A program made the translations under genes and the position numbers. The notes under the pieces were generated by a model that was not told the DNA's origin, ran no database searches, and saw only the letters and a list, made by a program, of their open reading frames with translations. A stretch of DNA of 64,000 bases from the NCBI RefSeq assembly GCF_003258595.1, contig NZ_QHHQ01000012.1:1-64000 (forward strand), in the 5' to 3' direction. Positions 26,883 to 63,769 of the stretch are shown one piece after another (position 1 is the stretch's first letter; every line of letters starts with the position of its first letter). Origin of the DNA: Acuticoccus sediminis (GTDB lineage Bacteria > Pseudomonadota > Alphaproteobacteria > Rhizobiales > Amorphaceae).

Positions 26883-26883
26883 A

Positions 26884-26901
26884 TTTCTAGATCTATCGAA
26901 A
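26884..26901. promoter_or_regulatory. Putative ArsR operator
   Basis: TTTCTAGATCTATCGAAA directly upstream of the arsR ATG. It contains the perfect palindrome TAGATCTA framed by TTTC and GAAA, in an AT-rich island within very GC-rich DNA. An autoregulatory ArsR site is the natural reading; the match is by position and symmetry only. Confidence 0.5.
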
Positions 26902-27057
26902 CAATTGCTCCCGTCAAGTCCCCGCCGGCCCCCGGGGACGGGCGGCGCGGCCCCCCGGAGACGCCGCTCGTGTGGCGGCAAAGTCCTGACCGTGAATGCG
27001 TTTACCCCGCTGGCGCGTTGCTCTATAGCGGGACCAGGCACGTACGAAGGGCTTCCC

Positions 27058-27609
27058 GTGGACTGCACCCCGCTCAGAATTTCGGACGTCATCCTCCTTC
27101 AGCCGAAGCGCTTCGAAGACGACCGGGGATGGTTCCAGGAGACCTGGAACGCCCGCACCCTCGAAAAGAACGGCATCACGCTCGACTTCGTGCAGGACAA
27201 CCAGAGCCTGTCGCGCAAGGCGGGCACGGTGCGCGGCCTCCACCTGCAGGTGGCCCCCTACGCCCAGGCCAAGCTGGTGCGGGTCGTCGTCGGCGCGATC
27301 ATCGACGTCGCGGTCGACATCCGCGAGGGCTCGCCCACCTACGGCCAGTGGGTCTCGGCCGAGCTCTCCGCCGAGAACGGCGCGCAGCTCCTCGTCCCGC
27401 GCGGCTTCGCGCACGGCTTCCGAACCCTCGTTCCGGACACCGAGGTCTGCTACAAGGTGGACGGCTTCTACGACCGCGCCAGCGAGCGGGGCATCCGCTA
27501 CGACGACCCCGAGCTCGGGATCGACTGGGGCCCGGAGGCAGAGATCCTGCTCTCCGAGAAGGACAAGGTGCTCCCCCTCCTCAAGGACCTCGGTCCCGTC
27601 AGCTTCTAG
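27058..27609 (+). CDS. rmlC: dTDP-4-dehydrorhamnose 3,5-epimerase
   Basis: A 183-residue cupin-fold epimerase, third step of dTDP-L-rhamnose synthesis. Landmarks: FEDDRGWFQETW, VQDNQSLSRKAGTVRGLHLQ with the catalytic His at about 62, FAHGFRTL, and the active-site Tyr at about 132 in CYKVDGFY. The start is GTG 27058 with AAGGG six bases upstream; the resulting length is normal for the family. rmlD follows after seven bases. rmlA and rmlB are not in the window and must be elsewhere. Confidence 0.95.
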   Translation: MDCTPLRISDVILLQPKRFEDDRGWFQETWNARTLEKNGITLDFVQDNQSLSRKAGTVRGLHLQVAPYAQAKLVRVVVGAIIDVAVDIREGSPTYGQWVSAELSAENGAQLLVPRGFAHGFRTLVPDTEVCYKVDGFYDRASERGIRYDDPELGIDWGPEAEILLSEKDKVLPLLKDLGPVSF

Positions 27610-27616
27610 GCACGCC

Positions 27617-28483
27617 ATGAAGGTTCTCGTCATCGGCCATTCCGGGCAGGTCGCACGCGCGCTGGTGGAGCGGGCCGACGGGGACACGGTGACGGCCCTC
27701 GGCCGCCCCGAGATCGACCTCGCGGCGCCCGACACCCTCGCCCGCGCGTTCGACGCGGCGACGCCCGACGTCGTCGTCAACGCCGCCGCCTACACCGCCG
27801 TCGACGCCGCCGAGAGCGACGAGGACGCCGCCCGCGCCCTCAACGCGACCGGTCCGGGCCGCCTCGCCGAGCGCTGCGCGGCCGACGGCGTGCCGCTCAT
27901 CCACATCTCCACCGACTACGTGTTCGACGGGACGCTCGACCGGCCCTACCGCGAGGACGACCCCATCGCGCCGCAGAGCGCCTACGGGCGCACCAAGGCG
28001 GAGGGCGAGGCCGCCGTGCGCGCCGCCGGCGGCAGGACCCTCGTCGCCCGCACCGCCTGGGTCTACTCCCCGTTCGGCAAGAACTTCGTGAAGACCATGC
28101 TGCGCGTGGGCGCCGAGCGGGACACCCTGACGGTCGTCGCCGACCAGCACGGCAACCCGACGAGCGCCCTCGACATCGCCGACGCCCTCCTCGCCCTCGC
28201 CCGCCAGAGCGCGGCCTGGCCGGACGGCGGCGAGATCGTCCACGTCGCCGGCCGCGGCGACACCACCTGGTGCGACTTCGCCCGCGCGATCGTCGCCAGC
28301 CTCCCCGAGCCGCCGACGGTGAAGGCGATCACCACCGCCGACTACCCGACCCCGGCGACGCGCCCGGCCAACTCCCGCCTCGACGGCACGCGCCTCGCCG
28401 AGCGCTACGGCATCGCCATGCCGCACTGGACGCAGTCGCTCGACGTCGTCCTCGCCCGCCTCGCCGGGTCCCCGGAAGGCTGA
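27617..28483 (+). CDS. rmlD: dTDP-4-dehydrorhamnose reductase
   Basis: A 288-residue short-chain dehydrogenase, last step of dTDP-L-rhamnose synthesis (NADPH-dependent). N-terminal nucleotide motif VIGHSGQVARAL (a GxxGQ variant), DVVVNAAAYTAVDAAE, HISTDYVFDG and the catalytic YGRTKAEGE are all present, as is ARTAWVYSPFGKNFVKTML. It is co-transcribed with rmlC. Repeat copy D starts 31 bases after its stop. Confidence 0.96.
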   Translation: MKVLVIGHSGQVARALVERADGDTVTALGRPEIDLAAPDTLARAFDAATPDVVVNAAAYTAVDAAESDEDAARALNATGPGRLAERCAADGVPLIHISTDYVFDGTLDRPYREDDPIAPQSAYGRTKAEGEAAVRAAGGRTLVARTAWVYSPFGKNFVKTMLRVGAERDTLTVVADQHGNPTSALDIADALLALARQSAAWPDGGEIVHVAGRGDTTWCDFARAIVASLPEPPTVKAITTADYPTPATRPANSRLDGTRLAERYGIAMPHWTQSLDVVLARLAGSPEG

Positions 28484-28514
28484 CCGGCCGTTCCAGGGAC
28501 ACCTGATCGGGACC

Positions 28515-28749
28515 GCCGGAGCCTCCGGCGGGCTCGGGTCCCACCAGCGATCAAGTCCCGCCCGACCGCCGGAACCGCCGTCGCGCTTGCCCCCTGGCAG
28601 CGTCCGGGAGCCGGCGCAAGGGCAAGCGGCTTCGCCGGCCTCCGGCCCCTTGCACCGGCTCCCGGACACTGCCTTTCAGGGGGCGCGACGGCGGCTCCGG
28701 CGATCAGGCTCCCGCCCCGGATTGCGTCGGCGCCGCGCGAGGGGAGCGC
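28515..28749 (+). repeat. Dispersed ~230-bp inverted-repeat element, copy D
   Basis: Same family, plus orientation, filling the gap between the convergent rmlD and tctA stop codons (31 bases from rmlD, 16 from tctA). Begins with GCCGGAGCCTCCGGC and ends GCGCCGCGCGAGGGGAGCG. Confidence 0.9.
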
Positions 28750-28765
28750 GGTGCGGTGAACGGTC

Positions 28766-30244
28766 CTACGCGGCCTTGCGCGGGCCCCTGAGCTGCAGCG
28801 CGAGCATCGCCACGAAGGCGACCGAGAGCCCCAGCGAGATCGGGTGGGACACGAAATCCCACAGGAAGACGAGCGGATCCCCCCGCGCGCCGATCATCGC
28901 GCGGCGGTAGTTGGCGTCCATCATCGGCCCCAGGATGACGCCCAGGATCACCGGCGCCACGGGGAAGCCGTAGAGCTTCATCGCGTAGCCGAGGACGCCG
29001 AAGCCCAGCATCCAGACGATGTCGACCGGGTTGTTCTGGATCGCGTACGCGCCGACCGCCGACAGCACCACGATGAGCGGCACCAGCACCGCCTTCGGGC
29101 ACTCGATCACCTTGGCGAAGACGCGCACCCCGGTGAGGCCGAACACCAGCAGGAAGGCGTTCGCGAGCACCAGCGCGCCGACGATGAAGCGGAAGAGGTC
29201 GGGCGTCTCGGTGATGAGGAGCGGCCCCGGCTTCAGGCCGTGGATGAAGAGCGCGCCGATGATCACCGCGGTCACCGCGTCGCCCGGGATGCCGAGCGTC
29301 AGCATCGGGATGAAGGCGCCGCCGACGGCCGCGTTGTTGGCCGATTCGGGCGCCACCAGGCCCTCCTTCGCCCCCTGGCCGAACGGCACCTCCGGGTTCT
29401 TCACGGTGCGCTTGGCCTGGTCGTAGGCGAGCAGCGCGGCGATGTCCCCGCCCGTCCCCGGCAGCGCGCCGATCAGCGTGCCGATGCCCGAGGAGCGGAT
29501 CGCGAGCCCCAGATAGCGCCGCACGTCGCGCCATGCGGGGACGATCCTCGACACGTTCTGCTTCACCGCCGGCAGGTTGATGTCGCGCAGCTGCATCAGC
29601 GCCTCGGCGACGCCGAAGAAGCCGATCATCGCCACCACGTAGTGGATGCCGCCCATCAGGTGGATGGTGCCGAAGGTGAAGCGGCCCTGCGCGGTCATCG
29701 GGTCGAGGCCGACCATGCCGATGAGCACCCCCAGCGCCCCCGCGAAGGCGCCCCGGGTGAAGTCGCCCGACAGGGAGCCGACGAGCAGGATGCCGATCAG
29801 CCCCAGCAGCAGGTAGTCGCGCGACTGGAAGAGGATCGCGAACTGGCTGATCGGCGGCGCGAAGAGGGCGAGCGCCGCGACGCCGATCATGCCGCCGATG
29901 ACGCTCATCACCGTGGTGAGGCCGATGGCGGCCCCCGCCTCGCCGCGCTGGGCGAGCGGATAGCCGTCGAGCGCGGTCGCGACGGCCGACGGCGCGCCGG
30001 GGATGTTGAGGAGGATCGCCGTGCGCGAGCCGCCGTAGACGCCGCCGACGTAGACGCCGGCGATCAGGGCGAGCGCCTCGTTCACGTCCCACGCGTGGGT
30101 GAAGGAGATGAGGATCGACGTCGCCATCGTCACCGAGAGGCCGGGGATGGCACCGACGTAGATGCCCGCGAAGGTCCCCGCCGCGACCAGCGCGAGCGTC
30201 CACGGATCGAGGATCGGACCCAGGATTTGCAGCAGAACGTCCAT
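28766..30244 (-). CDS. tctA: Tripartite tricarboxylate transporter large permease TctA
   Basis: A 492-residue polytopic inner-membrane protein with about twelve hydrophobic segments, the main channel of a TctABC secondary transporter. Family landmarks include GTFAGIYVGAIPGLSVTMA, PGAPSAVATALDGYPLAQRG, PGTGGDIAALLAYDQAKR and FGQGAKEGLVAPESANNAAVGGAFIPMLTLGIPGD. It follows tctB by nine bases. The substrate may be a tricarboxylate or another carboxylic acid; the binding protein does not reveal it. Confidence 0.95.
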   Translation of the reverse strand: MDVLLQILGPILDPWTLALVAAGTFAGIYVGAIPGLSVTMATSILISFTHAWDVNEALALIAGVYVGGVYGGSRTAILLNIPGAPSAVATALDGYPLAQRGEAGAAIGLTTVMSVIGGMIGVAALALFAPPISQFAILFQSRDYLLLGLIGILLVGSLSGDFTRGAFAGALGVLIGMVGLDPMTAQGRFTFGTIHLMGGIHYVVAMIGFFGVAEALMQLRDINLPAVKQNVSRIVPAWRDVRRYLGLAIRSSGIGTLIGALPGTGGDIAALLAYDQAKRTVKNPEVPFGQGAKEGLVAPESANNAAVGGAFIPMLTLGIPGDAVTAVIIGALFIHGLKPGPLLITETPDLFRFIVGALVLANAFLLVFGLTGVRVFAKVIECPKAVLVPLIVVLSAVGAYAIQNNPVDIVWMLGFGVLGYAMKLYGFPVAPVILGVILGPMMDANYRRAMIGARGDPLVFLWDFVSHPISLGLSVAFVAMLALQLRGPRKAA

Positions 30245-42321: not shown

Positions 42322-43530
42322 TCAGGAGGCCGCCGGCTCGGCCGCCACCCCCGCCAGGCGCTCCAGATGCGCCGAGACGCCGATGCCGAGCGCGGCCATG
42401 CGGTCCGCCAGGGTGGCCGCGGTCCGCCGGCGCCAGGCGTCGAAGGCGGGGCCGTCGAAGCGGACCGCCGCCAGGACCTCGCCGATCGAGGACGCGGCCA
42501 TCACCGCCTCCATGTCGACGGCGGGCAGATGCATCGTCTCGGCGAGCTCGCCGGTGCGCGAATCGTGCGCGATGACGACGCCGGGCGTGCCGGCCGCGAT
42601 CGCCGCCATGTTGCCGTGGAGGCGCGTGCCCAGCATCAGTGCGAGCTGGCCCATCTCCTTCATCCACTCCGGCGCGCTGGTGTAGAAGCGGCCGCGGCGG
42701 GCCATGAAGCTCCAGAACTCGTCGTCGCCCGCGCCCGGTTCCAGCACCGACTTGATGGTCCCGCGCGCGCCGGCCGGGACCGTCTGCCATGAGCGCCCCG
42801 CGGCGTGGACCGCCTCCGGCCCGCCGGACTGCTGCACGTAGAGCCCGCCGCGGGCGCGCAGCCAGGCGAAGAGCCTGCGCTCGAGGGCCCGCTTCTCGGT
42901 CTCGCGGGCGATCTCGAAGGGGGCCGCCGCGGTGAGGCCGAAGAGCGGCACCTCGGGGCTCGCCCTCGCCGCCTCGAGCTTCGCCGCCATCGCCGCGCCC
43001 GCCTCCGGGTCCGGGTTGAGGAGCGCGGAGGGGCAGCCCAGCACCTCGACGTTGTCGATCCCGAACTCGGCGCAGACCGTCTGCGAGAAGGCCCCGCGCA
43101 CCGAGACGAACGCCGCCCGCTCGCGGATGACGCCGGCGAGGCGGGAGACCTGGGGGTCGGCCTTCAGCGCCTCGATGGTGCCGCGCTCGCCGCCGAGCCG
43201 GGGCGACTGGGCGCCGAGGCCGAGCACCACCAGCGGCCGCCGGGCCCGCTCCAGGAAGTTGGAGAAGCCGGTCCAGTCGGCGCCGAGGCGCAGGTGGTTG
43301 GCGGCCGGCACGACGACGTACTTCGCCCCGCGGAGCGCCGCGGGATCGGTGTAGGGGATCTCGGAGCGGCCGATGTGGCGCTGCGGGCCGGCGAGGAGCT
43401 GCGCCGCCGCGTACTGGAACATCAGGTTGCCGGAGTTGGCCCCCAGCGCGGCGAGCAGGCCGGGGGTGTCGAACCGGGAGGGGTCGCGCACGAATCCCGG
43501 CGTTCCCATGAAGGCCAGCGGCTCACTCAT
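42322..43530 (-). CDS. Polysaccharide pyruvyl transferase family protein, paralogue 1
   Basis: A 402-residue protein of the polysaccharide pyruvyl transferase family (CsaB/WcaK-like), which add pyruvate ketals from phosphoenolpyruvate to surface glycans. Landmarks: LGANSGNLMFQYAAAQLL near the N-terminus, VVLGLGAQSP, FVSVRGAFSQTVC, EVLGCPSALLNP and the C-terminal LGTRLHGNMAAIAAGTPGVVIAHDSRTGELAE with the conserved RLHG. Ribosome site GGAGAGGG before ATG 43530. The tandem paralogue lies 155 bases upstream. Confidence 0.88.
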   Translation of the reverse strand: MSEPLAFMGTPGFVRDPSRFDTPGLLAALGANSGNLMFQYAAAQLLAGPQRHIGRSEIPYTDPAALRGAKYVVVPAANHLRLGADWTGFSNFLERARRPLVVLGLGAQSPRLGGERGTIEALKADPQVSRLAGVIRERAAFVSVRGAFSQTVCAEFGIDNVEVLGCPSALLNPDPEAGAAMAAKLEAARASPEVPLFGLTAAAPFEIARETEKRALERRLFAWLRARGGLYVQQSGGPEAVHAAGRSWQTVPAGARGTIKSVLEPGAGDDEFWSFMARRGRFYTSAPEWMKEMGQLALMLGTRLHGNMAAIAAGTPGVVIAHDSRTGELAETMHLPAVDMEAVMAASSIGEVLAAVRFDGPAFDAWRRRTAATLADRMAALGIGVSAHLERLAGVAAEPAAS

Positions 43531-43546
43531 CACACCCTCTCCGCCC

Positions 43547-43606
43547 GGCCTTCTCTCGTCAGGCCTTCTCTCGTCAGGCCTTTTCCCGTCCGGCCTTCTG
43601 CCGTTC
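43547..43606. repeat. 15-bp tandem array in the spacer between pyruvyl transferase genes
   Basis: Four units of 15 bp; the first two are identical (GGCCTTCTCTCGTCA), the last two diverged. The array lies just upstream of the ribosome site of the downstream gene. Confidence 0.85.
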
Positions 43607-43684
43607 CGCGATCCGCGCGACCGCGTCCCGACGGTCCTTCTGCTGCGCCCACGGCCGCCAGATCGTCACAGTCGCCCGGCGAGG

Positions 43685-44881
43685 TCAACGGCCGAGCTCC
43701 GCGATGTCCTCGGCGGGGGCGAGGCCGATGCGCGCGAAGGCGGCGGCGAGGCCCGCGGCGATGCGGCGGCGGCCGGCGTCGAAGAGGCCGGCGTCGAAGC
43801 GCACGCGCTCCAGCATGGCCTCGACGCGCCCGGCCGCGACCACCTCGGCGAGGGTGAGGGTGGGGAGCGCCATCGTCTCGACGAGCTCGGCGGTGCGCGC
43901 ATCGTGCGTCACCACGACGCCCGGGACCGCGGCCGCGAGGGCGGCCATGCTGCCGTGGAGGCGCGTGCCGAAGACCGCGTCGAACGGCTTCACCGCCTCG
44001 ATCCAGCGCGCCGCGTCGGTGAAGAGGCGCCCGCGCCGGCGCATGACGGCGACGAAGTCGTCGAGGCCCATCTCCGGCGCCAGGATCCGGCGCATCGAGA
44101 GGACCGCCGACAGGGGCACCTCGGCGAAGGTGCCCCTCGCCATGGCGGCGGCCGCCGTCCCGCCCGACTGCTGGACGTAGAGGCCGTTGCCGCGCACCGT
44201 CCCGGCGAAGAGGACGCGCTCGGCGGCGAGCTTCTCGTCCTGGTCCTGGATCTCGAAGGGCGCGGCGGCGGCGAGGGCGATGCGGGCGGCGCCGCCCTTC
44301 TCGCGCGCCTTGCCGAGGCGCCAGGCGACGGCCCGGCCGAGGTCCGGCCGCGGGTTGAGGAAGAGGGAGGGGCAGCCGAGCGGCTCGGTGCCGGTGAGCC
44401 CGAGCGCCTCGCAGACCCGCTGCGAGAAGGTCCCGCGCACCGAGACGAACACCGCCTTCTCGGCGAGGACGGCGGCGAGGCGGGAGACGGACGGGTCGCG
44501 CGTCAGCGCCGCGACGGTGGCCGCCTCGCCGTCGGCGGACGGGGCCTGGCTGCCGAGGCCGAGGACGACGAGCGGGCAGTCGGTCCGGGCGAGGCCGTTG
44601 GCGAGCCCCGTCCAGTCGGTGCCGAGGCGCAGGTGGTTGGCGGCGGGGAAGACGAGCGCCCTGGCGTCCGCGAGGACGGCCTCCGCCTCGGGCCCGGAGA
44701 GGGTGGTGAGGTGGCGCGCCTCGTGCGCGAAGAGGCGCGGCGCGGCGTGCTGGAACATCAGGTTGCCGGCGTTGGCGCCGAGCCGGGCGAGCAGCGCCTC
44801 GGTGGAGAGCGTGCCGGCATCGGCGACGGCGCCGGGCGAGCCGAGGAAGGCGAGGTGCCCGCCGTCCCTGACGCGCCTCAT
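43685..44881 (-). CDS. Polysaccharide pyruvyl transferase family protein, paralogue 2
   Basis: A 398-residue paralogue of the gene at 42322-43530, with the same landmarks: LGANAGNLMFQHAA, FPAANHLRLGTDWTGLANGL, VVLGLGSQAPS, FVSVRGTFSQRVCEALG, EPLGCPSLFLNP and FGTRLHGSMAALAAAVPGVVVTHDARTAELVE. Probably co-transcribed. A pair of such enzymes may modify two different sugars or positions of the same glycan. Confidence 0.87.
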   Translation of the reverse strand: MRRVRDGGHLAFLGSPGAVADAGTLSTEALLARLGANAGNLMFQHAAPRLFAHEARHLTTLSGPEAEAVLADARALVFPAANHLRLGTDWTGLANGLARTDCPLVVLGLGSQAPSADGEAATVAALTRDPSVSRLAAVLAEKAVFVSVRGTFSQRVCEALGLTGTEPLGCPSLFLNPRPDLGRAVAWRLGKAREKGGAARIALAAAAPFEIQDQDEKLAAERVLFAGTVRGNGLYVQQSGGTAAAAMARGTFAEVPLSAVLSMRRILAPEMGLDDFVAVMRRRGRLFTDAARWIEAVKPFDAVFGTRLHGSMAALAAAVPGVVVTHDARTAELVETMALPTLTLAEVVAAGRVEAMLERVRFDAGLFDAGRRRIAAGLAAAFARIGLAPAEDIAELGR

Positions 44882-53975: not shown

Positions 53976-54088
53976 GGCGGGGCCCGGCGCCGCCGTTAAC
54001 GCCGCCTTAGCCCTCACGCGCGATAGCTTGTGTCACGCCGTCGGGGAGCGATGGCGTGTTTTTGTGTGAACGGGAGGCGCGGCCCGGG

Positions 54089-55357
54089 ATGACGCACACC
54101 GGCGTGACACACATGAGTCCGGTCCAGGCGGGTCCGGCACAGGTGAGCGGAACGGGGAGCGTCGGCTACGACACGATCGCCGGCGACGCCGCCACCCTGA
54201 GCGCGCAGATCGCGCGGCTGAGGGCGCAGATCTTCGAGCCGGAGATGGTCAAGACGCTGCGCCCGTTCACCAGCGCCGAGGCGGCCCGGCTGCTCGGCGT
54301 GACGGATTCGTACCTGCGCCACCTGGCGCGGGCGGGCGAGGGGCCGGAGCCGGCGCGCCAGTCCGGCAACCGCCACGCCTACAGCCTCGCCCAGATCCAC
54401 GAGCTGCGCGCCCACCTCGCCCGGAAGGGCGGGGCGAAGGCGCGGGTGATCCTGCCGAACCGGCCGCCGCACGAGGGGGCGCAGGTCGTCGCCGTCGCCA
54501 ACTTCAAGGGCGGTTCGGGCAAGACCACGACGACGGTCCACCTCGCCCAGCACCTCGCGATGCGCGGCTTCCGGGTGCTCGCCGTCGACCTCGACCCGCA
54601 GGCCTCGCTGTCGAGCCTCTTCGGCTACCAGCCGGAGGCGGACGTCTCGTCGGGCGAGACGCTCTACGGGGCGATCCGCTACGACGAGCCGCGGCCGGTC
54701 GAGGAGGTCATCCGCACCACCTATTTCCCCAACCTCGACCTGGTGCCGGGGAACCTCGAGCTCCACGAGTTCGAGCACGAGACGCCGCGGGCGCTGATGG
54801 AGCGCGGCACGCGGCAGGCGCCGTTCTACAGCCGCGTGGCGACGGCGCTGGCCGCGGTGTCGGCGCGCTACGACGTGATCCTGATCGACTGCCCGCCGCA
54901 GCTCGGCTTCCTCACGCTGGGCGCGCTGTGCGCGGCGTCCGGGGTGCTGGTGACGGTGCACCCGCAGATGCTGGACATCGCCTCGATGAGCCAGTTCCTC
55001 AACATGACGGCCGACCTCATGGACGTGGTGCGCCGGGCGGGCGCCAACGTCGAGCTCGACTTCTTCCGCTACGTGCTGACGCGCTACGAGCCGAAGGACG
55101 GGCCGCAGGCGCAGGTGGCCGGGTTCCTGCGCTCGCTGTTCGGCGAGCGGGTGCTGACGAACGCCATGGTGAAGTCGACCGCGCTCGCCGACGCCGGGCT
55201 CTCCAAGCAGACGCTCTACGAGGTGGGCCGCGAGGGCATGACGCGCTCGACCTACGACCGGGCGCTGGAAAGCCTCGACGCGGTCAACGGCGAGATCGAG
55301 GCGCTGATCCGCGGCGTCTGGGACCGGCGCTCGGTGCCGGCGCAGGCGGCCGAATGA
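54089..55357 (+). CDS. repA: Plasmid partition ATPase RepA (repABC type)
   Basis: A 422-residue ParA-family ATPase with an N-terminal helix-turn-helix (about 60-115: FTSAEAARLLGVTDSYLRHLARAGEGPEP), typical for RepA of repABC plasmids, which both partitions DNA and represses its own operon. Deviant Walker A FKGGSGKTTTTVHLA, Walker A' VLAVDLDPQASLSS and Walker B VILIDCPPQLGF. ATG 54089 follows GGGAGG at rather long spacing; a GTG at 54056 and an ATG at 54113 are alternatives. repB follows after 172 bases that contain a 15-bp repeat and a parS-like site. Confidence 0.94.
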   Translation: MTHTGVTHMSPVQAGPAQVSGTGSVGYDTIAGDAATLSAQIARLRAQIFEPEMVKTLRPFTSAEAARLLGVTDSYLRHLARAGEGPEPARQSGNRHAYSLAQIHELRAHLARKGGAKARVILPNRPPHEGAQVVAVANFKGGSGKTTTTVHLAQHLAMRGFRVLAVDLDPQASLSSLFGYQPEADVSSGETLYGAIRYDEPRPVEEVIRTTYFPNLDLVPGNLELHEFEHETPRALMERGTRQAPFYSRVATALAAVSARYDVILIDCPPQLGFLTLGALCAASGVLVTVHPQMLDIASMSQFLNMTADLMDVVRRAGANVELDFFRYVLTRYEPKDGPQAQVAGFLRSLFGERVLTNAMVKSTALADAGLSKQTLYEVGREGMTRSTYDRALESLDAVNGEIEALIRGVWDRRSVPAQAAE

Positions 55358-55529: not shown

Positions 55530-56534
55530 ATGACCAAGCGGCGACTGGCCATGGAACGGCTTCTCTCGGTCGAGGCGGCGCCGGGCGGCGAGGCGGCGCC
55601 CCCCCGGCCGGCGGCGCCGGTGCGCTCCGGCGCGGTGCGCACCATGGGCCTCGCGCTCGACAGGATCACCGACCCGGCCGAGGCGCGCGAGAGCGTCGTC
55701 GAGCTCGACACCGGCCTCGTCGACCCGTCCTTCGTGCGCGACCGTCTCGACGAGGCCGAGCCGGAGGGCACCGTGGAGGACCCGGCCGAGATCGACCCGA
55801 CCGGCCTCACCGCGCTCGCCCAGAGCATCGCCGAGGGCGGCCAGGCGGTCCCCATCCTGGTGCGCCCGCACCCCGGGACGCCGGGGCGCTACCAGATCGC
55901 CTACGGGCACCGCCGCTGGCGCGCGTGCCAGATGCTGCGCCGTCCGGTGCGGGCGATCGTGCGGCCCCTCGACGACGAGGCCCTGGTGCTCGCCCAGGGG
56001 CGCGAGAACAACGCCCGGCGCGACCTCACCTTCATCGAGCGGGCGCACTTCGCGGCGGCGCTCGTGGCGCGCGGCATGGCGCGGCCGACGGTCGGCAAGG
56101 CGCTCGGCGTCGACAAGTCCGAGCTCGCCCGGCTGCTCGCCGTCGCGAACGGCCTGCCGGAGGGGCTGGCGCCGCGGATCGGCCGCGCGCCCAAGGCCGG
56201 CCGGCCGCGCTGGCTGCGCCTGGTGACGCTCTGCCGGGAGGAGGGGGCCGAGGCGGCGCTCACCGCCGTGGCGGCGGCGGCGCATCTGCCGACCGACGAG
56301 CGCTTCAAGACCGTCTTCGACGCCCTCGCGATGCGCGCCGCGGCCGCCCGGGCGGCCCGTGCCGCCGCGACGACGGCGCCGCGGCCGGTGCAGGAGGCCT
56401 CGCCGATGACCGTCTCGCGCGGGCCCGGCCGCACGGTGATCACCATCGACACCCGGACCGCGCCGGCGTTCGCGGCCTTCGTGGAGGAGCGCCTGGAGGC
56501 GCTCTACCGCGAGTTCCGCGCCGGCGAAGGCTGA
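55530..56534 (+). CDS. repB: Centromere-binding partition protein RepB (ParB family)
   Basis: A 334-residue ParB/RepB protein. N-terminal ParB nuclease-like motifs VPILVRPHPGTPGRYQIAYGHRRWRA and RENNARRDLTFIERAHFAAAL, then a helix-turn-helix region (GMARPTVGKALGVDKSELARLLAVANGLP), the expected order for RepB. Ribosome site GGGAGAGGG before ATG 55530. It should bind the parS-like sites listed here and be moved by RepA. A repC initiator gene, which normally follows, is absent: the next gene begins 240 bases on and encodes an aldolase. Confidence 0.94.
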   Translation: MTKRRLAMERLLSVEAAPGGEAAPPRPAAPVRSGAVRTMGLALDRITDPAEARESVVELDTGLVDPSFVRDRLDEAEPEGTVEDPAEIDPTGLTALAQSIAEGGQAVPILVRPHPGTPGRYQIAYGHRRWRACQMLRRPVRAIVRPLDDEALVLAQGRENNARRDLTFIERAHFAAALVARGMARPTVGKALGVDKSELARLLAVANGLPEGLAPRIGRAPKAGRPRWLRLVTLCREEGAEAALTAVAAAAHLPTDERFKTVFDALAMRAAAARAARAAATTAPRPVQEASPMTVSRGPGRTVITIDTRTAPAFAAFVEERLEALYREFRAGEG

Positions 56535-56773: not shown

Positions 56774-57562
56774 GTGTCCGACCGATCCCTCAAGCAACGC
56801 CTCGCCGCCAAGGAGCTGCTGTTCGGCTCCTGGAACCAGCTCGGCTATCCGCAGACCACCGAGATCCAGGCCCGCGCCGCGTTCGACTTCTGCGCCATCG
56901 ACATGGAGCACACCTCGATCGCGACGAACGAGCTGCTCACCTCGATCCAGATCAGCCAGCTCGCCGGCAAGCCCGTCCTGGTGCGCGTCTCGGGCCACGA
57001 CCCGCTCTACGCCAAGCGCGCGCTCGACGCCGGCGCGAACGGCATCATCTGCCCCATGGTGGAGACGGTCGAGCAGGCCGAGCGCGCCCGCGACAGCGTC
57101 TACTACGCCCCCCGCGGCAGCCGCGGCGTCGGCCTCGCCCGGGCCCAGGGCTTCGGCCTCGACTTCGACACCTACCGCGACCGGAGCGACGACGAGCTCG
57201 TCCTGATCGTCCAGATCGAGCACTGGCGCGGCGCCGAGAACCTCGAGAAGATCCTCGACGTCGACGGCGTCGACGGCTTCCTGGTGGGGCCCTACGACCT
57301 CTCCGCCTCGTTCGGGAAGCCCGGCCGGTTCGACGACCCCGAGGTCGCCGCCGCGCTCTCGCGCATCGCCTCCATCGTCAGGGAGCACGACAAGCCCTCC
57401 GGGCTCCACGTCGTCCATCCCGACCGCGAGGGGCTCCGCAAGCGCGTCGAGGAGGGCTACCGCTTCATCGCCTACGGCACCGACATGCTGCTCTTCGCCA
57501 GGGCCGTCGCCGAGACCGCCGACCACTTCACCGGGCTGCGCGCCGAGAACCCGTCCGCCTGA
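56774..57562 (+). CDS. HpcH/HpaI-family aldolase
   Basis: A 262-residue class II (metal-dependent) aldolase of the HpcH/HpaI family, which joins pyruvate to an aldehyde to give a 2-keto-3-deoxy acid, or the reverse. Landmarks: FCAIDMEHTSI, RVSGHDPLYAKRALDAGANGIICPMVETVEQAE with the metal Glu, and GFLVGPYDLSASFG. Start GTG 56774 after AAGGTGAG. First gene of a five-gene cassette; the CMP-sugar synthetase begins two bases after its stop. Confidence 0.93.
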   Translation: MSDRSLKQRLAAKELLFGSWNQLGYPQTTEIQARAAFDFCAIDMEHTSIATNELLTSIQISQLAGKPVLVRVSGHDPLYAKRALDAGANGIICPMVETVEQAERARDSVYYAPRGSRGVGLARAQGFGLDFDTYRDRSDDELVLIVQIEHWRGAENLEKILDVDGVDGFLVGPYDLSASFGKPGRFDDPEVAAALSRIASIVREHDKPSGLHVVHPDREGLRKRVEEGYRFIAYGTDMLLFARAVAETADHFTGLRAENPSA

Positions 57563-57564
57563 GC

Positions 57565-58263
57565 ATGCCCCCCGTCATCGCCATCGTGCCCATGAAGGGC
57601 CACTCGGCCCGCGTGCCGAAGAAGAACCTCCGCCCCATGTGCGGCCGCCCGCTCTACCACTGGATCACCCGCACGCTGCAGGCGGCGAGGGGTGTCGACC
57701 GGGTGGTGATCGAGACCGACGCGGACGAGATCGAGGCGGACGTGCGCGCGAGCTTCCCGGACATCGAGGTGCTGCGCCGGCCGGCGCACCTGCACGGCGA
57801 CGACGTCCCGATGAACGCCGTCCTCGACAACGCCATGGCCGGGCTCGAGAGCCGGCTCGAGGCGGGGGCGGTCTTCCTGCAGTCCCACTCCACCAACCCG
57901 CTCCTCAAGGTGTCGACGGTGGAGAAGGCGCTCGGCGACTACCTGGCGGACGGCGACCACGACAGCCTGTTCGCGGTGACGCGCTGGCAGACGCGCTTCT
58001 TCTGGGCCGACGGGCGGCCGGTGAACCACAACCCGGACGAGCTGCTGCCGACCCAGGACCTGCCGCCGCTCTACGAGGAGAACTCCAACCTCTACATCTT
58101 CACCCGGGCGAGCTTCGACAAGCGCCACCACCGCATCGGCACCGCCCCGAAGATGTACGAGATGGAGTACATCGAGGCCGTCGACATCGACGAGATCCAG
58201 CACTTCGACCTCGCCGAGGCGCTGCTCGAGCGGGCGATCGCCCGCGGCGAGGTGAGCGCCTGA
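57565..58263 (+). CDS. Acylneuraminate/KDO-type cytidylyltransferase
   Basis: A 232-residue CMP-sugar synthetase. The nucleotide-binding signature AIVPMKGHSARVPKKNLRPMCGRPL is clear, followed by VVIETDADEIEADV, VFLQSHSTNPLL and EYIEAVDIDEIQHFD. It activates a ulosonic acid (sialic acid-like or KDO-like) as the CMP derivative for transfer. Its stop overlaps the next start by one base (TGATG). No neuB- or kdsA-type synthase is nearby; the aldolase upstream may take that role. Confidence 0.92.
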   Translation: MPPVIAIVPMKGHSARVPKKNLRPMCGRPLYHWITRTLQAARGVDRVVIETDADEIEADVRASFPDIEVLRRPAHLHGDDVPMNAVLDNAMAGLESRLEAGAVFLQSHSTNPLLKVSTVEKALGDYLADGDHDSLFAVTRWQTRFFWADGRPVNHNPDELLPTQDLPPLYEENSNLYIFTRASFDKRHHRIGTAPKMYEMEYIEAVDIDEIQHFDLAEALLERAIARGEVSA

Positions 58264-59195
58264 TGGGCACCGTCCTGACCACCACATCCTCGTTCCGGGA
58301 ACGCGACAACGCGGCGACGCAGCGCCTCGCCGCGGCCGGGCATACGATCCTCTTCAGCCCGCTCGGCCGGCGCCTCACCGAGGACGACGCCGTCGCCCTC
58401 TTCGCCGAGCACGACCCCGTCGGCGTCGTCGCCGGGGTCGAGCCGCTCACCGACCGCGCCATGGCCGCAGCCCCCTCGCTGAAGGCGATCGCGCGCTGCG
58501 GCACCGGGCTCGATTCGGTCGACCTCGAGGCGGCGAGGGCGCGCGGCATCGCCGTCTCCAACACGCCGGGCGCGCCGGCGCTCGCGGTCGCCGAGCTCGC
58601 CGTCGGGCACATCCTCGCCTCGCTCCGGCGCATCGCCGAGGCCGACCGGCTGATCCGCGCCGGCCGGTGGACCGCGCTCTCGGGCGGCCTCCTCGGCGCG
58701 CGCACGGTCGGCATCGTCGGCTTCGGGCGCATCGGCCAGCGCGTCGCCGAGCTGCTGGCGCCGTTCGGCGCCCGCCTCCTCGCCGCCGACCCCTTCGCCG
58801 AGGCCAAGGCCGCGGCGGGCCGGGGAGTCGAGCTCGTCGCCCTCGAGAGGCTGCTCGCCGAGTCCGACGTCCTCACCCTCCACGCCGCCCCCGGCAGCGT
58901 GCGGCTCGGCGCCGAGGCGCTCGCCGCCGTCAAGCCGGGCGCGATCCTCGTCAACACCGCCCGCGGCGACCTCGTCGACGAGGCGGCGCTCGTCGCCGCG
59001 CTGCAGGACGGGCGCCTCGCCGGCGCCGCGCTCGACGTCTTCGCCGAGGAGCCCTACACCGGCCCGCTCACCGCCCTCGCCGGCGTGACGATGACCGCGC
59101 ACATGGGCTCCTACGCGGCCGAGAGCCGCTCGCTGCAGGAGCGCGAGGCGCTCGACAACCTCGTCGCCGACCTCGCCCGGCTGGGGCTGCTGTGA
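58263..59195 (+). CDS. D-2-hydroxyacid dehydrogenase (phosphoglycerate dehydrogenase-like)
   Basis: A 310-residue NAD-dependent dehydrogenase. NAD motif VGIVGFGRIGQRVAELLAPFG, substrate-side IARCGTGLDSVD, catalytic Arg in LVNTARGDLVDE, Glu in DVFAEEP and the His position in TAHMGSYAAE, where SxH of classical enzymes is AHMGS. It may oxidise or reduce a 2-keto/2-hydroxy acid intermediate of the cassette. The next ATG overlaps its stop. Confidence 0.9.
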   Translation: MGTVLTTTSSFRERDNAATQRLAAAGHTILFSPLGRRLTEDDAVALFAEHDPVGVVAGVEPLTDRAMAAAPSLKAIARCGTGLDSVDLEAARARGIAVSNTPGAPALAVAELAVGHILASLRRIAEADRLIRAGRWTALSGGLLGARTVGIVGFGRIGQRVAELLAPFGARLLAADPFAEAKAAAGRGVELVALERLLAESDVLTLHAAPGSVRLGAEALAAVKPGAILVNTARGDLVDEAALVAALQDGRLAGAALDVFAEEPYTGPLTALAGVTMTAHMGSYAAESRSLQEREALDNLVADLARLGLL

Positions 59196-59878
59196 TGGCG
59201 TTGTCAGCTGACAACCCGGCCGGACCCGCCCCCGTGCGGGCGGTCGTCTTCGACTTCGACGGGGTCATCGTCGACAGCGTCGGCGTGAAGACCGAGGCCT
59301 TCGTGGCGCTCTACGCCCCGCACGGCGAGGCCGTCGCCGAGGCGGTGCGCGCCTATCACCTCGCCCACGGCGGCATGCCCCGCGCCGACAAGCTGCGCCA
59401 CTGGCAGAGCACCCTGGTGGACGGCCCCGCCGACGACGCCACCATCGCCGCCCTCGGCGCCCGCTTCGGCCTGATGGTCCGGGAGAAGGTCATCGCCTGC
59501 GGCGAGATCGCCGGCGCCGGGGCCGCGCTCGCCGCGCTCGCCGCGCGCCTGCCGCTCCACGTCGCCTCCGCGACGCCCGAGACGGAGCTCGTCGGGATCA
59601 TCGCCGCGCGGGGCCTGACGGGCCGCTTCCGGAGCATCCACGGCATCCCCACCACCAAGGCCGAGGCGCTCCGGATGCGCGTCGCCGAGGGTCTCGCCCC
59701 GGACGAGATCCTGATGATCGGCGACGCCACCGCCGACCACGCCGCGGCCGCCGCCGTCGGCACCCGCTTCCTCGGCGTGGTTCCCGAAGGGGCGAAGAGC
59801 CCCTTCCCGGACGGCACCGACACGGTCCCCGACCTCACCGGCCTCGCCGAACGGGTCCTCGGCGCGAGGACCGCATGA
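59195..59878 (+). CDS. HAD-family phosphatase
   Basis: A 227-residue HAD hydrolase (phosphoglycolate phosphatase/beta-phosphoglucomutase-like, small alpha-helical cap). Motif I VFDFDGVIVDS with the nucleophile Asp, motif II HVASATP, motif III Lys in TTKAEAL and motif IV MIGDATADHAAAAAVG. It could remove a phosphate from the sugar acid before CMP activation, as KdsC does for KDO. The first ten codons are built on a parS-like site and encode the peptide ALSADNPAG, poorly conserved-looking and not part of the fold. Confidence 0.9.
   Translation: MALSADNPAGPAPVRAVVFDFDGVIVDSVGVKTEAFVALYAPHGEAVAEAVRAYHLAHGGMPRADKLRHWQSTLVDGPADDATIAALGARFGLMVREKVIACGEIAGAGAALAALAARLPLHVASATPETELVGIIAARGLTGRFRSIHGIPTTKAEALRMRVAEGLAPDEILMIGDATADHAAAAAVGTRFLGVVPEGAKSPFPDGTDTVPDLTGLAERVLGARTA
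59200..59215. promoter_or_regulatory. parS-like centromere site 4, inside a coding sequence
   Basis: GTTGTCAGCTGACAAC, identical to the core of sites 1 and 2, at codons 2-7 of the HAD phosphatase gene. Confidence 0.75.
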
Positions 59879-60861
59879 GCGGGCCCGGCACCGGCAGAGA
59901 CGGCACGGGCGGGGGCGGGACGGCGCCACCCGGGACGAGGAAGGCCGTCGTCACCGGCGGGTCCGGCTTCCTCGGCAGCCACGTCGCCGACGCCTTCACC
60001 GCGGCCGGCTACGCCGTCACCGTCTACGACCTGCGTCCCTCGCCCCACCTCGGCCCCGGCCAGACGATGGTGACGGGCGACCTCGGCGACGTCGACGCCC
60101 TGGCGGCCGCCTTCGCCGGCGCCGAGGTCGTCGCCCACTTCGCCGGCATCGCCGACATCGCGGCCGCGAACGTCGACCCGATCCGGACCGCCAACGTCAA
60201 CCTCGTCGGCACCGTCAACACGCTGGAGGCGGCCGTCCGGGCGGGCGTGAAGCGCTACCTCTTCGCCTCCACCGTCTACGTCTATTCCGACATGGGCGGC
60301 TTCTACCGGGCCAGCAAGCAGGCCTGCGAGGCGTTCGTGGAGACCTACTCGCAGGAGCGCGGCCTTCCCTTCACGGTGCTGCGCTACGGCACCCTCTACG
60401 GGCGCCGCTCGGGCGGCACCAACCGCATCCACACCATGGTGAACTCCGCCATCCGCGAGAAGGCGATCTCCTATCCCGGCTCCGGCGAGGCGCTGCGCGA
60501 CGTCATCCACGCCCGCGACGCGGCCACCCTCACCGTGCGCACCCTGGCGCCGGACTATGCCAACACGCACCTCCTCATCACCGGCCAGGAGCGGCTGCGC
60601 GTGAAGGACATCGCCCGGATGATCGCCGAGATCGTCCCCGGCCCCATTGCCCTGGAGTTCCAGGAGGGCGAGCCGGAGGGGCACTACATGCTGACCCCCT
60701 ATTCCTTCTCGCCGCGCCTCTCCAGGAAGCTGGTGCCGACCGAGTACATCGACATCGGCCAGGGCATCTACGACTGCGTCCAGGAGGCCTGGGAGGCCGC
60801 CCACCCGCAGGAGCCCGTCTACCTCCCCGGCTCGGGCAGGGACCGCGACCCGACGTCCTAG
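59875..60861 (+). CDS. NAD-dependent sugar epimerase/dehydratase
   Basis: A 328-residue extended short-chain dehydrogenase. NAD motif VVTGGSGFLGSHVADAF at about residue 25, VVAHFAGIADIAAANVDP, FASTVYVYSD and the active-site YRASKQACE. The first 20 residues are a Gly/Thr-rich lead. The start overlaps the HAD stop as ATGA. It ends the five-gene cassette; repeat copy G begins 36 bases after the stop. Likely modifies a nucleotide sugar or the sugar acid precursor. Confidence 0.92.
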   Translation: MSGPGTGRDGTGGGGTAPPGTRKAVVTGGSGFLGSHVADAFTAAGYAVTVYDLRPSPHLGPGQTMVTGDLGDVDALAAAFAGAEVVAHFAGIADIAAANVDPIRTANVNLVGTVNTLEAAVRAGVKRYLFASTVYVYSDMGGFYRASKQACEAFVETYSQERGLPFTVLRYGTLYGRRSGGTNRIHTMVNSAIREKAISYPGSGEALRDVIHARDAATLTVRTLAPDYANTHLLITGQERLRVKDIARMIAEIVPGPIALEFQEGEPEGHYMLTPYSFSPRLSRKLVPTEYIDIGQGIYDCVQEAWEAAHPQEPVYLPGSGRDRDPTS

Positions 60862-61169: not shown

Positions 61170-62108
61170 TCAGGCCTGGCGGCGGCGGTGAAGCGCCTTC
61201 TGGATCGCGTTGCCGAGGTGGGCGGAGGGGTCGCTCCCGGCCCAGCGGGCGCCGTCGTCCGTCAGCACCGAGACCAGGCGCTGCCGGTCCTGCAGCCACG
61301 TCCGCCGGCCGATCTCGGCCCGCATCCGTGCCCCGCGCGACAGGCGCTCCACCGTCTCCCGGTCGAGCGCCGGGAGATCGGTCGGCCGCCGCGGATCGGT
61401 GAGGATGCCGCTCGACAGGTGTCCGATCGTCTCGCTCGCCGGCGCCGCGTCCGGGGCGACGACGATCTGGCCGCGCCCCATGGCGAGGCGCGTCGCGTGG
61501 TCGATCCCCGCCGACAGCCCCCGCGCCCGGGAGGCGAAGACGAAGAGCGCGCGCTCCTCGACGCCGTCGGCGCCGGCCTCCGCCGTATCGCCGACGGCGG
61601 CGAGGTGCTCGATGCCGAGGTGGCGGCACTGCTGCGCCACGCTGCCCCGGCTCGGCACGCCCGTGTCATGCGGCCCCTCCACGAAGACCGCGGACCAGGC
61701 GGCGGGGGCGAAGTCGTGCACCGGCGGCGCCGCCGCGGGCTCGGGCCAGTAGTCGAAATAGGCCGAGCGGCACTCGTGCGCCTGCAGCGTCTCGTGCTGC
61801 CGACGCGAGAAGGTGACGAACCGCGCCGCGCCGGTGAAGGCCTGCCAGTAGGCCCCGTCCCGCGGGGTCTGCGACGGCACGATCACCGCGCGCTCCAGCC
61901 CGAAGGCCAGCAGCCGCGCCGCGACCGCCTCGGTGCGCCAGAAGAGGCAGAGGCCGAACGGCTCGGCGAGGCCGAGCGAGAGGGCGTCGGCCTCCGGCGA
62001 GGCCGGGTCGGCGGCCACCCGCGTGACCTCGCCCAGCCCGGACAGGACCTCGGCGAGGACGTTGACGTCCGCGTCCTCGCCGCGCGGCTCGACACACAGG
62101 ATCTTCAT
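61170..62108 (-). CDS. Glycosyltransferase-like protein (GT-B type, divergent)
   Basis: A 312-residue protein starting MKILCVEPRG. The pattern of a first domain with LLAFGLERAVIVPSQTP and VTFSRRQHETLQAH and a second with ALFVFASRARGLSAGIDHATRLAMGRGQIVVAPDAAPASE suggests a GT-B fold with a nucleotide-sugar pocket, but the key EX7E motif is unclear. Its ATG overlaps the stop of the upstream glycosyltransferase gene by four bases, so they form an operon. Sugar unknown. Weak resemblance to the middle of the 1386-residue protein at 15527. Confidence 0.65.
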   Translation of the reverse strand: MKILCVEPRGEDADVNVLAEVLSGLGEVTRVAADPASPEADALSLGLAEPFGLCLFWRTEAVAARLLAFGLERAVIVPSQTPRDGAYWQAFTGAARFVTFSRRQHETLQAHECRSAYFDYWPEPAAAPPVHDFAPAAWSAVFVEGPHDTGVPSRGSVAQQCRHLGIEHLAAVGDTAEAGADGVEERALFVFASRARGLSAGIDHATRLAMGRGQIVVAPDAAPASETIGHLSSGILTDPRRPTDLPALDRETVERLSRGARMRAEIGRRTWLQDRQRLVSVLTDDGARWAGSDPSAHLGNAIQKALHRRRQA

Positions 62109-63769
62109 GGCGCGTCCTCCGGCTCGGGGGCGGGGCCGGAGGGGGGGGCGGGGCCAGAGGTGGGGGTGGGGGTGCCGGCGGGGGCGATCACCACCATCCG
62201 CTCCAGCGCCAGGCCCAGGGTGCGCGGGTCCTCGGGCGGCTGCGCCACGGCCGAGACGGCGAGGACCAGCTCGTTGACCTCTCCCGTGCGCCAGGCGTCC
62301 GCGACCGGGACCCTCACCTCGCCCCGGCCCTCCAGCGTCCGGCTCGCGAGGACGGTGCCGTTGAGCTCGACGGTCATCGTCTGCGGCTCGGCGAGGAAGG
62401 GGTTGCTGCGCACCACGAGGAGGAGCGCCTCGGCCGCCTCCTCGGCGCGGAAGGCGATCTCGGCGCGCTCGGCGAGCGACCACACGTGGGTGTCCTCGAG
62501 GCCGGCCCAGCCGTGCGCCAGGAGCTTCGCGCTCGCCTTGCTGCGCGTCGTGAAGGCGGTCTCGCCGGGGCCGAGCAGCGGCAGCCCGGTGCGCCTGACC
62601 ATCTCGAAGCGGAAGCGCCGCAGCGCGATCGACACGTAGCGCCCGTCCCCCGCCCCGTCCGGGGCGCCGCCGTCATGCTCCGCCAGCACGTGGCCATGGC
62701 GCGGCAGGCAGTCGACGACGCTGCCCGGCTCCAGCGGCCGCGACAGCGCGATCGGCACCGAGAAGGCGCCGGCCGGCAGGCCCTGCCGGCCGATCGTCCT
62801 GCCCTCGTGGACGACCTCGATCTCCTGGCCGGGGAGCGGGTTGTGGCCCTCCAGGACGAGGGTGTGCGCGCGCGCCCCCGCCGGCGTCGCGAGGCGGAAG
62901 CCCTCGCCCGCGCACCAGGCGAGGCGCGGCCCGGCGGCCTCCGCCCCGGTCGCGGCGGCGTCCGCCTCGCGCGCGAAGACGCCCGACACGATCGCCCCGT
63001 TCATCGGGCTCGTCGGCGGGAACGGCGGCGGGCCGTCGGGGAAGACCTCGCCCGGGTAGAAGAAGGTGTCGATCGCGTCCGGGTTCTCCGAGTGGCGCCG
63101 GTAGAGGGCGCAGAACTCCATCCGGCAGCGCACGTGCCGGCGGATCGACAGGCCGCCGCCGGCGTAGATCGAGACGGTCTCGTCGATGTACTGCGTCGTC
63201 GCCCCGCGGTCGAAGGCCCGGAGCAGGAAGGCGTGGTCGGCGCAGATCTCGAAGGCGGTGTCGTAGCCGCGCGCCTTGAGGAGGGAGGCCCTGGTGAAGG
63301 TCGCCTGGTGCGCCGGCAGCCGGGAGAGCCAGGTCTTGGTGATCGCGCCCTTGCGCAGCGTCTCGCGCAGGGCGCCGTAGTCGGCGGCGCGCGTCAGCGT
63401 GGTGCGCCCGGCGTCGGCGTAGAGGTGGTCGCCGTAGAGGATGTCCGGATCGCCCTCGCGCCGGGCCCAGATCGCGGACAGCGTCTCCCTCGCGTAGAAC
63501 CGGTCGCCCGCGTTCATGAAGAGGACGTATTCGTTCGAGGCCATCCGCGCCGCTTCGTTCATGGCGTAGAAGACGCCGGCGTCGAAGCTGGTGGCGATCT
63601 TGTCGACCTCGCCCCGGTAGCGGGCGACGACCTCGCTCGTGCGGTCCCAGCTGGTGCCGTCGACGAGGATGGTCTCGACGTCTGGAAAATCTTGCTGAAG
63701 AACGCTTTCGAGTGTCGCCGGCAGAACGTCCGCCGCGTTGAACGCGACGGTGATGATGGTGAAACTCAT
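62105..63769 (-). CDS. Family 2 glycosyltransferase fused to a beta-rich C-terminal domain
   Basis: A 554-residue protein. Residues 1-240 are a GT2 domain: MSFTIITVAFNAADVLPATL, TILVDGTSWDRTSEVV, FDAGVFYAMNEAARMA, and the DxD position altered to FMNAGDRF. A linker (about 245-275) leads to a beta-rich region (about 280-525; VLEGHNPLPGQEIEVVHEG, MTVELNGTVLASRTLEG) of possible carbohydrate-binding type, and a Pro-rich end. Ends overlap the next gene as ATGA. It resembles the glycosyltransferase at 4964-5725 in its N-terminal part. Confidence 0.88.
   Translation of the reverse strand: MSFTIITVAFNAADVLPATLESVLQQDFPDVETILVDGTSWDRTSEVVARYRGEVDKIATSFDAGVFYAMNEAARMASNEYVLFMNAGDRFYARETLSAIWARREGDPDILYGDHLYADAGRTTLTRAADYGALRETLRKGAITKTWLSRLPAHQATFTRASLLKARGYDTAFEICADHAFLLRAFDRGATTQYIDETVSIYAGGGLSIRRHVRCRMEFCALYRRHSENPDAIDTFFYPGEVFPDGPPPFPPTSPMNGAIVSGVFAREADAAATGAEAAGPRLAWCAGEGFRLATPAGARAHTLVLEGHNPLPGQEIEVVHEGRTIGRQGLPAGAFSVPIALSRPLEPGSVVDCLPRHGHVLAEHDGGAPDGAGDGRYVSIALRRFRFEMVRRTGLPLLGPGETAFTTRSKASAKLLAHGWAGLEDTHVWSLAERAEIAFRAEEAAEALLLVVRSNPFLAEPQTMTVELNGTVLASRTLEGRGEVRVPVADAWRTGEVNELVLAVSAVAQPPEDPRTLGLALERMVVIAPAGTPTPTSGPAPPSGPAPEPEDAP

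Follow-up and report, generated by a model that had tools for sequence, protein, structure and literature searches.

The window analysed here, a stretch of 64,000 nucleotides from Acuticoccus sediminis (NZ_QHHQ01000012.1), carries at 56774-60861 a cassette of five genes for an aldolase (ALD), a cytidylyltransferase (CYT), a dehydrogenase (DH), a HAD-family hydrolase (HAD) and an epimerase-like protein (EPI). The five genes are a real module: their association is not due to chance, because the same order is found on an Acuticoccus plasmid and other phyla have the same set in altered orders. We lean towards the reading that the module makes a 2-keto, most likely a 2-keto-3-deoxy, sugar acid and activates it with CMP for surface polysaccharide, without the use of a phosphoenolpyruvate (PEP)-dependent synthase.

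The five open reading frames are intact, lie on the + strand in the order ALD-CYT-DH-HAD-EPI and translate without breaks, with intergenic spacings of +2, -1, -1 and -4 bases. A first-pass annotation of the window had described five such families joined by gaps or overlaps of -4 to +2 bases, and both the coordinates and the Pfam matches bear this out. None of the five proteins reaches a curated NCBIfam equivalog cut-off. The genes of the cassette are as follows:

56774..57562, + strand: ALD, HpcH/HpaI-type class II pyruvate aldolase of the His150-Tyr174-His212 subfamily; GTG start; PF03328, 105.9 bits; nearest solved relative GarL 1dxe
57565..58263, + strand: CYT, CMP-sugar (acylneuraminate-type) cytidylyltransferase; PF02348, 80.5 bits
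58263..59195, + strand: DH, D-2-hydroxyacid dehydrogenase; PF02826 (2-Hacid_dh_C), 164.8 bits
59195..59878, + strand: HAD, capped sugar-phosphatase-like hydrolase; PF00702/PF13419 (Hydrolase/HAD_2), 43.2/33.6 bits
59875..60861, + strand: EPI, extended SDR (NAD-dependent epimerase/dehydratase family), a specific subfamily; PF01370, 141.2 bits

Recurrence of the module

A genome-neighbourhood search for the five-gene order had been proposed as a check in the first-pass annotation. The comparison finds the identical five-family order near repA/repB on plasmid NZ_CP094833.1 of Acuticoccus sp. I52.16.1 (locus L079), where CYT is 90% identical and the cassette likewise has a family-2 glycosyltransferase in its vicinity (at 28257-29960), and it finds the same families in other arrangements in other phyla. 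All five are present in L004 (Arcobacter) and in L014 and L016 (Desulfobacteraceae), arranged as CYT-ALD-DH-EPI-cyclase-HAD; in L004 a YhcH-type gene precedes HAD. Genes were called by open frames and phmmer thresholds, and the counts given here depend on both; the near-identical loci L212-L218 are not thinned in them. The KdsB-like, 6-phosphogluconolactonase (6PGL), NeuB, second NeuA-type, SIS and methyltransferase queries were taken from L122, L125, L162, L163 and L165, which match them by construction. L162 is counted on its own region, its HAD, EPI and DH being located about 8-11 kb away (L236).

Among 398 genomes of the host's phylum, the next six loci of the aldolase subfamily all (6/6) have DH at most 4 kb from ALD, and L125, L126 and L127 have EPI and HAD too. 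Four more subfamily members were found in 385 genomes of the host's class, each with EPI on the same contig (4/4). Passing ALD matches numbered 20 in 297 Desulfobacterota genomes and 16 in 240 Verrucomicrobiota genomes. Within 8 kb of ALD, a cytidylyltransferase is present in 9, DH in 8, EPI in 6 and HAD in 5 of the ten Pseudomonadota loci; the corresponding numbers are 17, 8, 15 and 15 for 19 Desulfobacterota loci, and 2, 2, 0 and 1 for 15 Verrucomicrobiota loci.

The linkage is tied to the subfamily: a CMP-ulosonate-type cytidylyltransferase lies within 8 kb in 26 of the 29 Pseudomonadota and Desulfobacterota loci versus 1 of the 23 next-best aldolases (Fisher p 2e-10, uncorrected for relatedness). 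Twenty of these control aldolases, with flanks of about 8 kb, have no module partner at all (0/20). The flanks of the remaining three are shorter or uneven; one of them (G169) has a KdsB-like gene, and DH, EPI or HAD is seen in none (0/3). The aldolase of G169 (L128, 7804-9468), 34% identical, stands directly beside the KdsB-like gene (198 bits); DH, EPI and HAD are not seen before the contig end, and the pair is possibly a simpler relative of the module.

A profile of EPI gave 21 strong matches in the 297 Desulfobacterota genomes, from which a weak match in G1001 (183 bits) is excluded. Eighteen of them are shared with the 20 genomes that have ALD (hypergeometric p 8e-24, uncorrected for kinship), and EPI and ALD lie at most 10 kb apart in 16 of these 18.

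The aldolase subfamily

Its PF03328 match, the metal-binding Glu and Asp and the catalytic Arg and His place ALD among the HpcH/HpaI class II pyruvate aldolases. The residues regarded as catalytic are all kept (H46, R71, Q147, E149 and D175), and H46, R71 and the metal ligands E149 and D175 are invariant in 14 of 14 aligned rows. HpaI, GarL and YfaU, which are catabolic enzymes, share with ALD the family and the catalytic residues. ALD is none of the three by equivalog score (174, 162-163 and 142 bits against cut-offs of 369, 393-407 and 441, respectively), and unlike them it stands in biosynthetic surroundings and carries three marks, namely His150 (after Glu149), Tyr174 (before Asp175) and His212 (in a short insertion).

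All three marks are found in 27 of the 28 cytidylyltransferase-linked members, the exception being L123, a broken frame without His212, as well as in the aldolases of the CYT-relative set plus L079 (13/13). The next-best aldolases never have all three together (0/23); G169 has Thr150-Tyr174-His212 and two others have His150. The aldolase of G069 (L094/L123) has an in-frame stop in the assembly, and may be a pseudogene or a sequencing error. A gap in the scores also delimits the subfamily: in the 398 genomes of the host's phylum, the ALD match within the host itself reaches 583 bits, those in six further genomes 204-229, and no other exceeds 154. Its identity to the 23 next-best homologues is 34-41%. 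A quick tree places the 20 controls apart from the module rows except L220, on a weak branch. This row is the ALD match of G1038, which lacks Tyr174 and groups with the controls, and it is still counted among the 20 Desulfobacterota genomes and the 19 loci.

Two types of cytidylyltransferase

CYT is a member of PF02348 (cut-off 22.6 bits) and is predicted from its sequence to use CTP and an ulosonate. The aspartates D207 and D209, regarded as catalytic, are present, the best solved relatives are the CMP-NeuAc synthetase 1qwj and NeuA 9t4z, and the best NCBIfam match is PseF at 77 bits, below the cut-off of 205.7. Among the 24 loci with a cytidylyltransferase, EPI and HAD (the window and L079 included), 13 have a KdsB-like enzyme instead of the NeuA-like kind of the window. 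The NeuA-like type occurs in the window, L004, L014, L016, L163, L204, L206, L207, L211 and L219, and the KdsB-like type in L125, L126, L165, L203, L209, L210 and L212-L218, as well as in L122-L124 and L208, where EPI or HAD is not nearby. A second, higher-scoring KdsB is encoded elsewhere in 8 of the 17 genomes with a KdsB-like module copy. In seven Desulfobacterota genomes and G102 the module copy, which scores below the curated cut-off, is the sole match at E 1e-15, and G018 has both KdsB copies near the module. That two types of CMP-ulosonate synthetase serve the same partners points more strongly than any other observation to a 2-keto sugar acid, converted into a CMP-sugar, as the product, and to something other than simply Kdo.

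Dehydrogenase, phosphatase and epimerase

DH keeps R234, E263 and H280, the Arg, Glu and His regarded as catalytic in its family. Its score against the phosphoglycerate dehydrogenase (PGDH) equivalog SerA is 211 bits, below the cut-off of 454, and in alignments the Arg-Ser motif of PGDH, the Arg of which binds phosphate, is replaced by Ala-Gly. On these two grounds a SerA function was rejected as an assignment, but not as chemistry. The host genome encodes 16 further DH homologues. In a tree of 104 DH rows, 59 DHs from a cassette that has no aldolase form one clade (support 100/97). The aldolase-linked DHs lie outside this clade in a set of 18 (94/71), made up of 17 plus the Verrucomicrobiota row L222 and containing the window DH, and in a set of 6 (96/65). 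L202 and L216, which also scored as DH for the tree, fall into neither set.

The aldolase-less cassette, with the order family-2 glycosyltransferase-CYT-DH-SDR, was seen around relatives of CYT. Within 3 kb of 77 such relatives in public genomes there is a same-strand related DH in 59 cases, an aldolase in 12 and both in 4, and 55/77 have the related DH without an aldolase. The cassette occurs among L002-L083 (e.g., L024 6201-10400 and L080 14085-17645), in some cases accompanied by an SMP-30 gluconolactonase or a cyclase-like gene. Its hosts include Cyanobacteria, Proteobacteria, Nitrospirota and Verrucomicrobiota. It shares with the module the CYT subfamily and a related DH, but its DHs belong to a separate clade and no subfamily aldolase lies within 3 kb. 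It may be another undescribed CMP-sugar route.

Four motifs, with D20/D22, S125, K155 and D177 kept, and a cap domain mark HAD as a putative HAD sugar phosphatase. Its structure model (pLDDT 90.6) aligns over nearly the full length with HAD phosphatases and beta-phosphoglucomutases, and the 50 matches listed are all HAD-family proteins (Z 19.5-21.9). The model fits a phosphatase that would act on a sugar-acid phosphate. KdsC is a cap-less tetrameric HAD; none is named among the 50 matches listed, an absence that is uninformative for the comparison. EPI is an extended SDR of the epimerase type by its PF01370 match and the Tyr-x3-Lys pair (Y144/K148, both kept), and either epimerase or dehydrogenase activity can be predicted for it. 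The mean pLDDT of its predicted structure is 64.9. The same EPI subfamily stands beside the aldolase in other phyla.

PEP-dependent synthases and known pathways

To our knowledge, the routes to CMP-ulosonic acids (Kdo, sialic, legionaminic and pseudaminic acid) all take their three-carbon unit from PEP. The cassette lacks the PEP-dependent KdsA or NeuB that characterizes the CMP-Kdo and CMP-nonulosonic pathways. NeuB has no match in the host genome, which is 97% complete, and the single KdsA-family match there is on contig C8, with a different cytidylyltransferase as its neighbour. In the surroundings of the subfamily loci, one NeuB query gave a strong match in L162 only and weak ones in L202, L208 and L231, and one KdsA query gave none.

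With the CMP-Kdo pathway (KdsD-KdsA-KdsC-KdsB) the module would share the logic of adding three carbons to an aldose phosphate, removing the phosphate with a HAD enzyme and activating the acid with CMP; several relatives also have a KdsB-like cytidylyltransferase and, in L122-L124, a SIS-domain isomerase as well. It differs in its HpcH-type aldolase, extra EPI and, often, DH, probably in its capped HAD, and in that its KdsB-like copy is divergent and often a second one. The CMP-nonulosonic pathways (NeuB/NeuA, LegI/LegF and PseI/PseF) have the same cytidylyltransferase family, with PseF as the best match, but the host has no NeuB and CYT falls far below the PseF cut-off. A further parallel is the laboratory one-pot chemistry in which NanA, a class I pyruvate aldolase, is coupled to a CMP-sialate synthetase; it too joins an aldolase to CTP activation, whereas the module would be natural and would employ a class II enzyme. 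CYT homologues that are 31-32% identical were seen on plasmids of Enterobacter (L084) and E. coli (L085), near polysaccharide export genes and beside an inositol-monophosphatase family protein and a NeuB-family synthase.

The open-licence literature in PMC, as far as it was covered, yielded no description of a CMP-ulosonic acid pathway based on an aldolase, nor of this gene set, in agreement with the first-pass annotation, in which the combination was not recognised as a described pathway. We regard the gene set as a variant within CMP-ulosonic acid biosynthesis, the aldolase-based form of which appears undescribed in that part of the literature. A link to the capsule sugar of Klebsiella K38, a 3-deoxy-pentulosonic acid, found no support in the paper examined for it.

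Several accessory genes accompany the module. A YhcH/YjgK/YiaL protein of the N-acetylneuraminate anomerase family is encoded in the clusters L004, L070, L071 and L223 (library-tested in L004 only), and the SIS-domain isomerase in L122-L124; these genes are consistent with an ulosonic acid made from a sugar phosphate. A PF04199-type cyclase is found in L004, L014, L016, L204, L219 and L270 (Pfam-tested in L004 only, the others by similarity), and a protein of the 6PGL/GlcN6P-isomerase family in L125, L163 and L165. None of the cyclase, 6PGL-family, YhcH and SIS genes adjoins the window cassette. MptE-like (PF01973) proteins were seen beside or near the cytidylyltransferase in L080, L081, L082, L062, L204, L211, L223, L225 and L236; they could be CMP-sugar transferases, and their family includes Maf-type flagellin glycosyltransferases. 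In L212-L218 a frame resembling hexapeptide-repeat acyltransferases is, by eye, kept between the KdsB-like gene and HAD, which suggests an acylated product.

Proposed pathway and alternatives

We infer the reactions, their order and the nature of the sugar from the genes, their families, residue conservation and linkage across phyla. ALD, in place of KdsA or NeuB, would form a bond between a 2-keto acid such as pyruvate and a sugar aldehyde or an aldose phosphate, HAD would take off the phosphate like KdsC or NanP, and EPI and DH would adjust the stereochemistry or oxidation state of either the aldehyde precursor or the product. With CTP, CYT would then form the CMP-sugar and draw the reversible aldol step forward, and a glycosyltransferase outside the five genes would carry out the transfer. 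HpcH aldolases have been run in vitro towards synthesis with hydroxyaldehydes (PMC7610986), which is in favour of this pathway. The smallest form seen, ALD, EPI, HAD and a KdsB-like enzyme without DH (L212-L218), fits it best. More tentatively, and with a little less than even confidence, we propose a widespread undescribed PEP-independent route to CMP-ulosonic acids in which a class II aldolase acts as anabolic synthase together with EPI, HAD, often DH, and two alternative cytidylyltransferases. Its product would be a sugar acid without a known genetic route, possibly 3-deoxy-heptulosaric acid (Dha) or one of a C5-C7 ulosonic type.

A number of observations weigh against an aldolase-based synthesis. 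Aldol addition of pyruvate can also run backwards, and this enzyme family is known chiefly for catabolic roles. In Verrucomicrobiota, a cytidylyltransferase is missing from the 8 kb around the aldolase in 13 of 15 relatives; His150 is absent from 7 of these 13, and the other 6 carry all three marks. In G810 and G878, EPI and ALD share a contig at distances of 26 and 53 kb. Of the 21 genomes with EPI, 3 (G799, G1005 and G1036) have EPI, DH and HAD without a subfamily aldolase, and in two of these a NeuA-type gene of weak similarity lies close by. L202 (G955) keeps the aldolase signature, its NeuA-type genes being below the threshold (125-134 bits) and EPI and HAD being absent. The strong NeuB match in L162 lies within 4 kb of ALD, and NeuB-family matches, four of them weak, occur elsewhere in 15 of 16 other genomes checked; NeuB is therefore not lost wherever the module occurs. 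The aldolase-linked DHs form no single supported clade, and paralogues from the host's own genome fall between the two sets. DH is missing from the seven loci L212-L218, which have the other four families; it is thus not indispensable, but a frequent and dispensable module member. The earlier claim that the aldolase takes the place of KdsA/NeuB stands in part: the cytidylyltransferase linkage of the subfamily, the host without NeuB and the placement of KdsA elsewhere speak for it, and the inconstant DH and the three genomes with EPI, DH and HAD but no ALD speak against it.

These same three genomes would suit an oxidative route, which we consider unlikely. EPI would then be a sugar(-phosphate) 1-dehydrogenase, a lactonase would open the lactone, DH would oxidise C2 to give a 2-keto aldonate, and HAD and CYT would dephosphorylate and activate it, with ALD supplying or recycling a side metabolite. 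The recurrent lactonase-type genes (the 6PGL family and the loci with PF04199-type cyclases) leave room for it, and the aldolase-less cassette pairs CYT and DH with an SDR, sometimes with the SMP-30 lactonase. Such a route leaves the constancy of the aldolase unexplained, likewise L212-L218 without DH; moreover, the lactonase role is deduced solely from family names, and the window cassette has no lactonase-type gene next to it. Rather less probable is a variant that starts from (phospho)glycerate: DH would oxidise it, HAD would release hydroxypyruvate, and ALD would join the latter with an aldehyde into a full ulosonic acid that keeps its 3-hydroxyl group. PGDH is the best family score of DH, albeit below the cut-off, phosphoglycolate phosphatase is among the weak matches of HAD, and, according to a review (PMC7610986), related HpcH aldolases run synthetically in vitro and accept hydroxypyruvate with D-glyceraldehyde or D-erythrose. 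The Ala-Gly in place of the PGDH motif, the absence of DH in L212-L218 and the 16 other DH homologues of the host genome argue against it.

It is also conceivable, if quite improbable, that ALD is no longer an aldolase but another C-C enzyme, e.g., a PEP-using one, and that the pathway is a NeuB/KdsA analogue on another fold. The fixation of His150, Tyr174 and His212 in the linked members and their joint absence from the next-best aldolases would agree with this, but the residues regarded as catalytic in aldolases are retained. We give very little credence to the idea that the genes simply serve the catabolism of an aromatic or sugar acid and that the cytidylyltransferase is next to them by accident. 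It has in its favour the catabolic HpaI, GarL and YfaU relatives, and aromatic or sugar catabolism had been named in the first-pass annotation as the case that would overturn the CMP-sugar proposal. That case suits the catabolic homologues, but not the surroundings of this subfamily, where the same five families are rejoined in varied orders across phyla among glycosyltransferases and MptE-like proteins. The next-best aldolases have a cytidylyltransferase in 1/23 and DH, EPI or HAD above threshold in 0/23 cases, and the catabolic explanation was rejected on the cytidylyltransferase linkage (26/29 versus 1/23).

Replicon and surrounding genes

The contig measures 109,544 bases and, with repA and repB beside the cassette, is therefore probably a plasmid. 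The context genes are:

54056..55357, + strand: repA, plasmid partitioning protein, upstream of the cassette; TIGR03453, 602.7 bits, above cut-off
55530..56534, + strand: repB, plasmid partitioning protein, upstream of the cassette; TIGR03454, 293.5 bits, above cut-off
62105..63769, - strand: family-2 glycosyltransferase, downstream of the cassette; PF00535

Other surface-polysaccharide genes are spread over the window (26821-28483, 42322-44881 and 62105-63769), namely rmlC, rmlD, two polysaccharide pyruvyl transferases and the family-2 glycosyltransferase. Two family-8 glycoside hydrolases are encoded at 3286-4575 and 8504-9808, the second near an EAL-domain response regulator, and an open frame of 1386 residues at 15527-19687, a stretch of nearly 80% G+C, has no Pfam match. 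A cyclase gene at 19966-20826 was considered as a missing member of the module and is not claimed as one, as it scores 17.9 bits against the L002 cyclase and lies about 36 kb off.

Implications

If the proposed pathway is correct, genome-based prediction of CMP-ulosonic acid pathways would change, since searches for NeuB and KdsA would miss a natural aldolase route. The module may also open a way to ulosonic acids of unknown origin, e.g., the Dha of plant pectin, for which a 2025 review (PMC12168206) gives no identified enzymes and no defined nucleotide form. It would further supply aldolases that evolved for synthesis, and could point to novel surface sugars among bacteria of the sea and of sediments.

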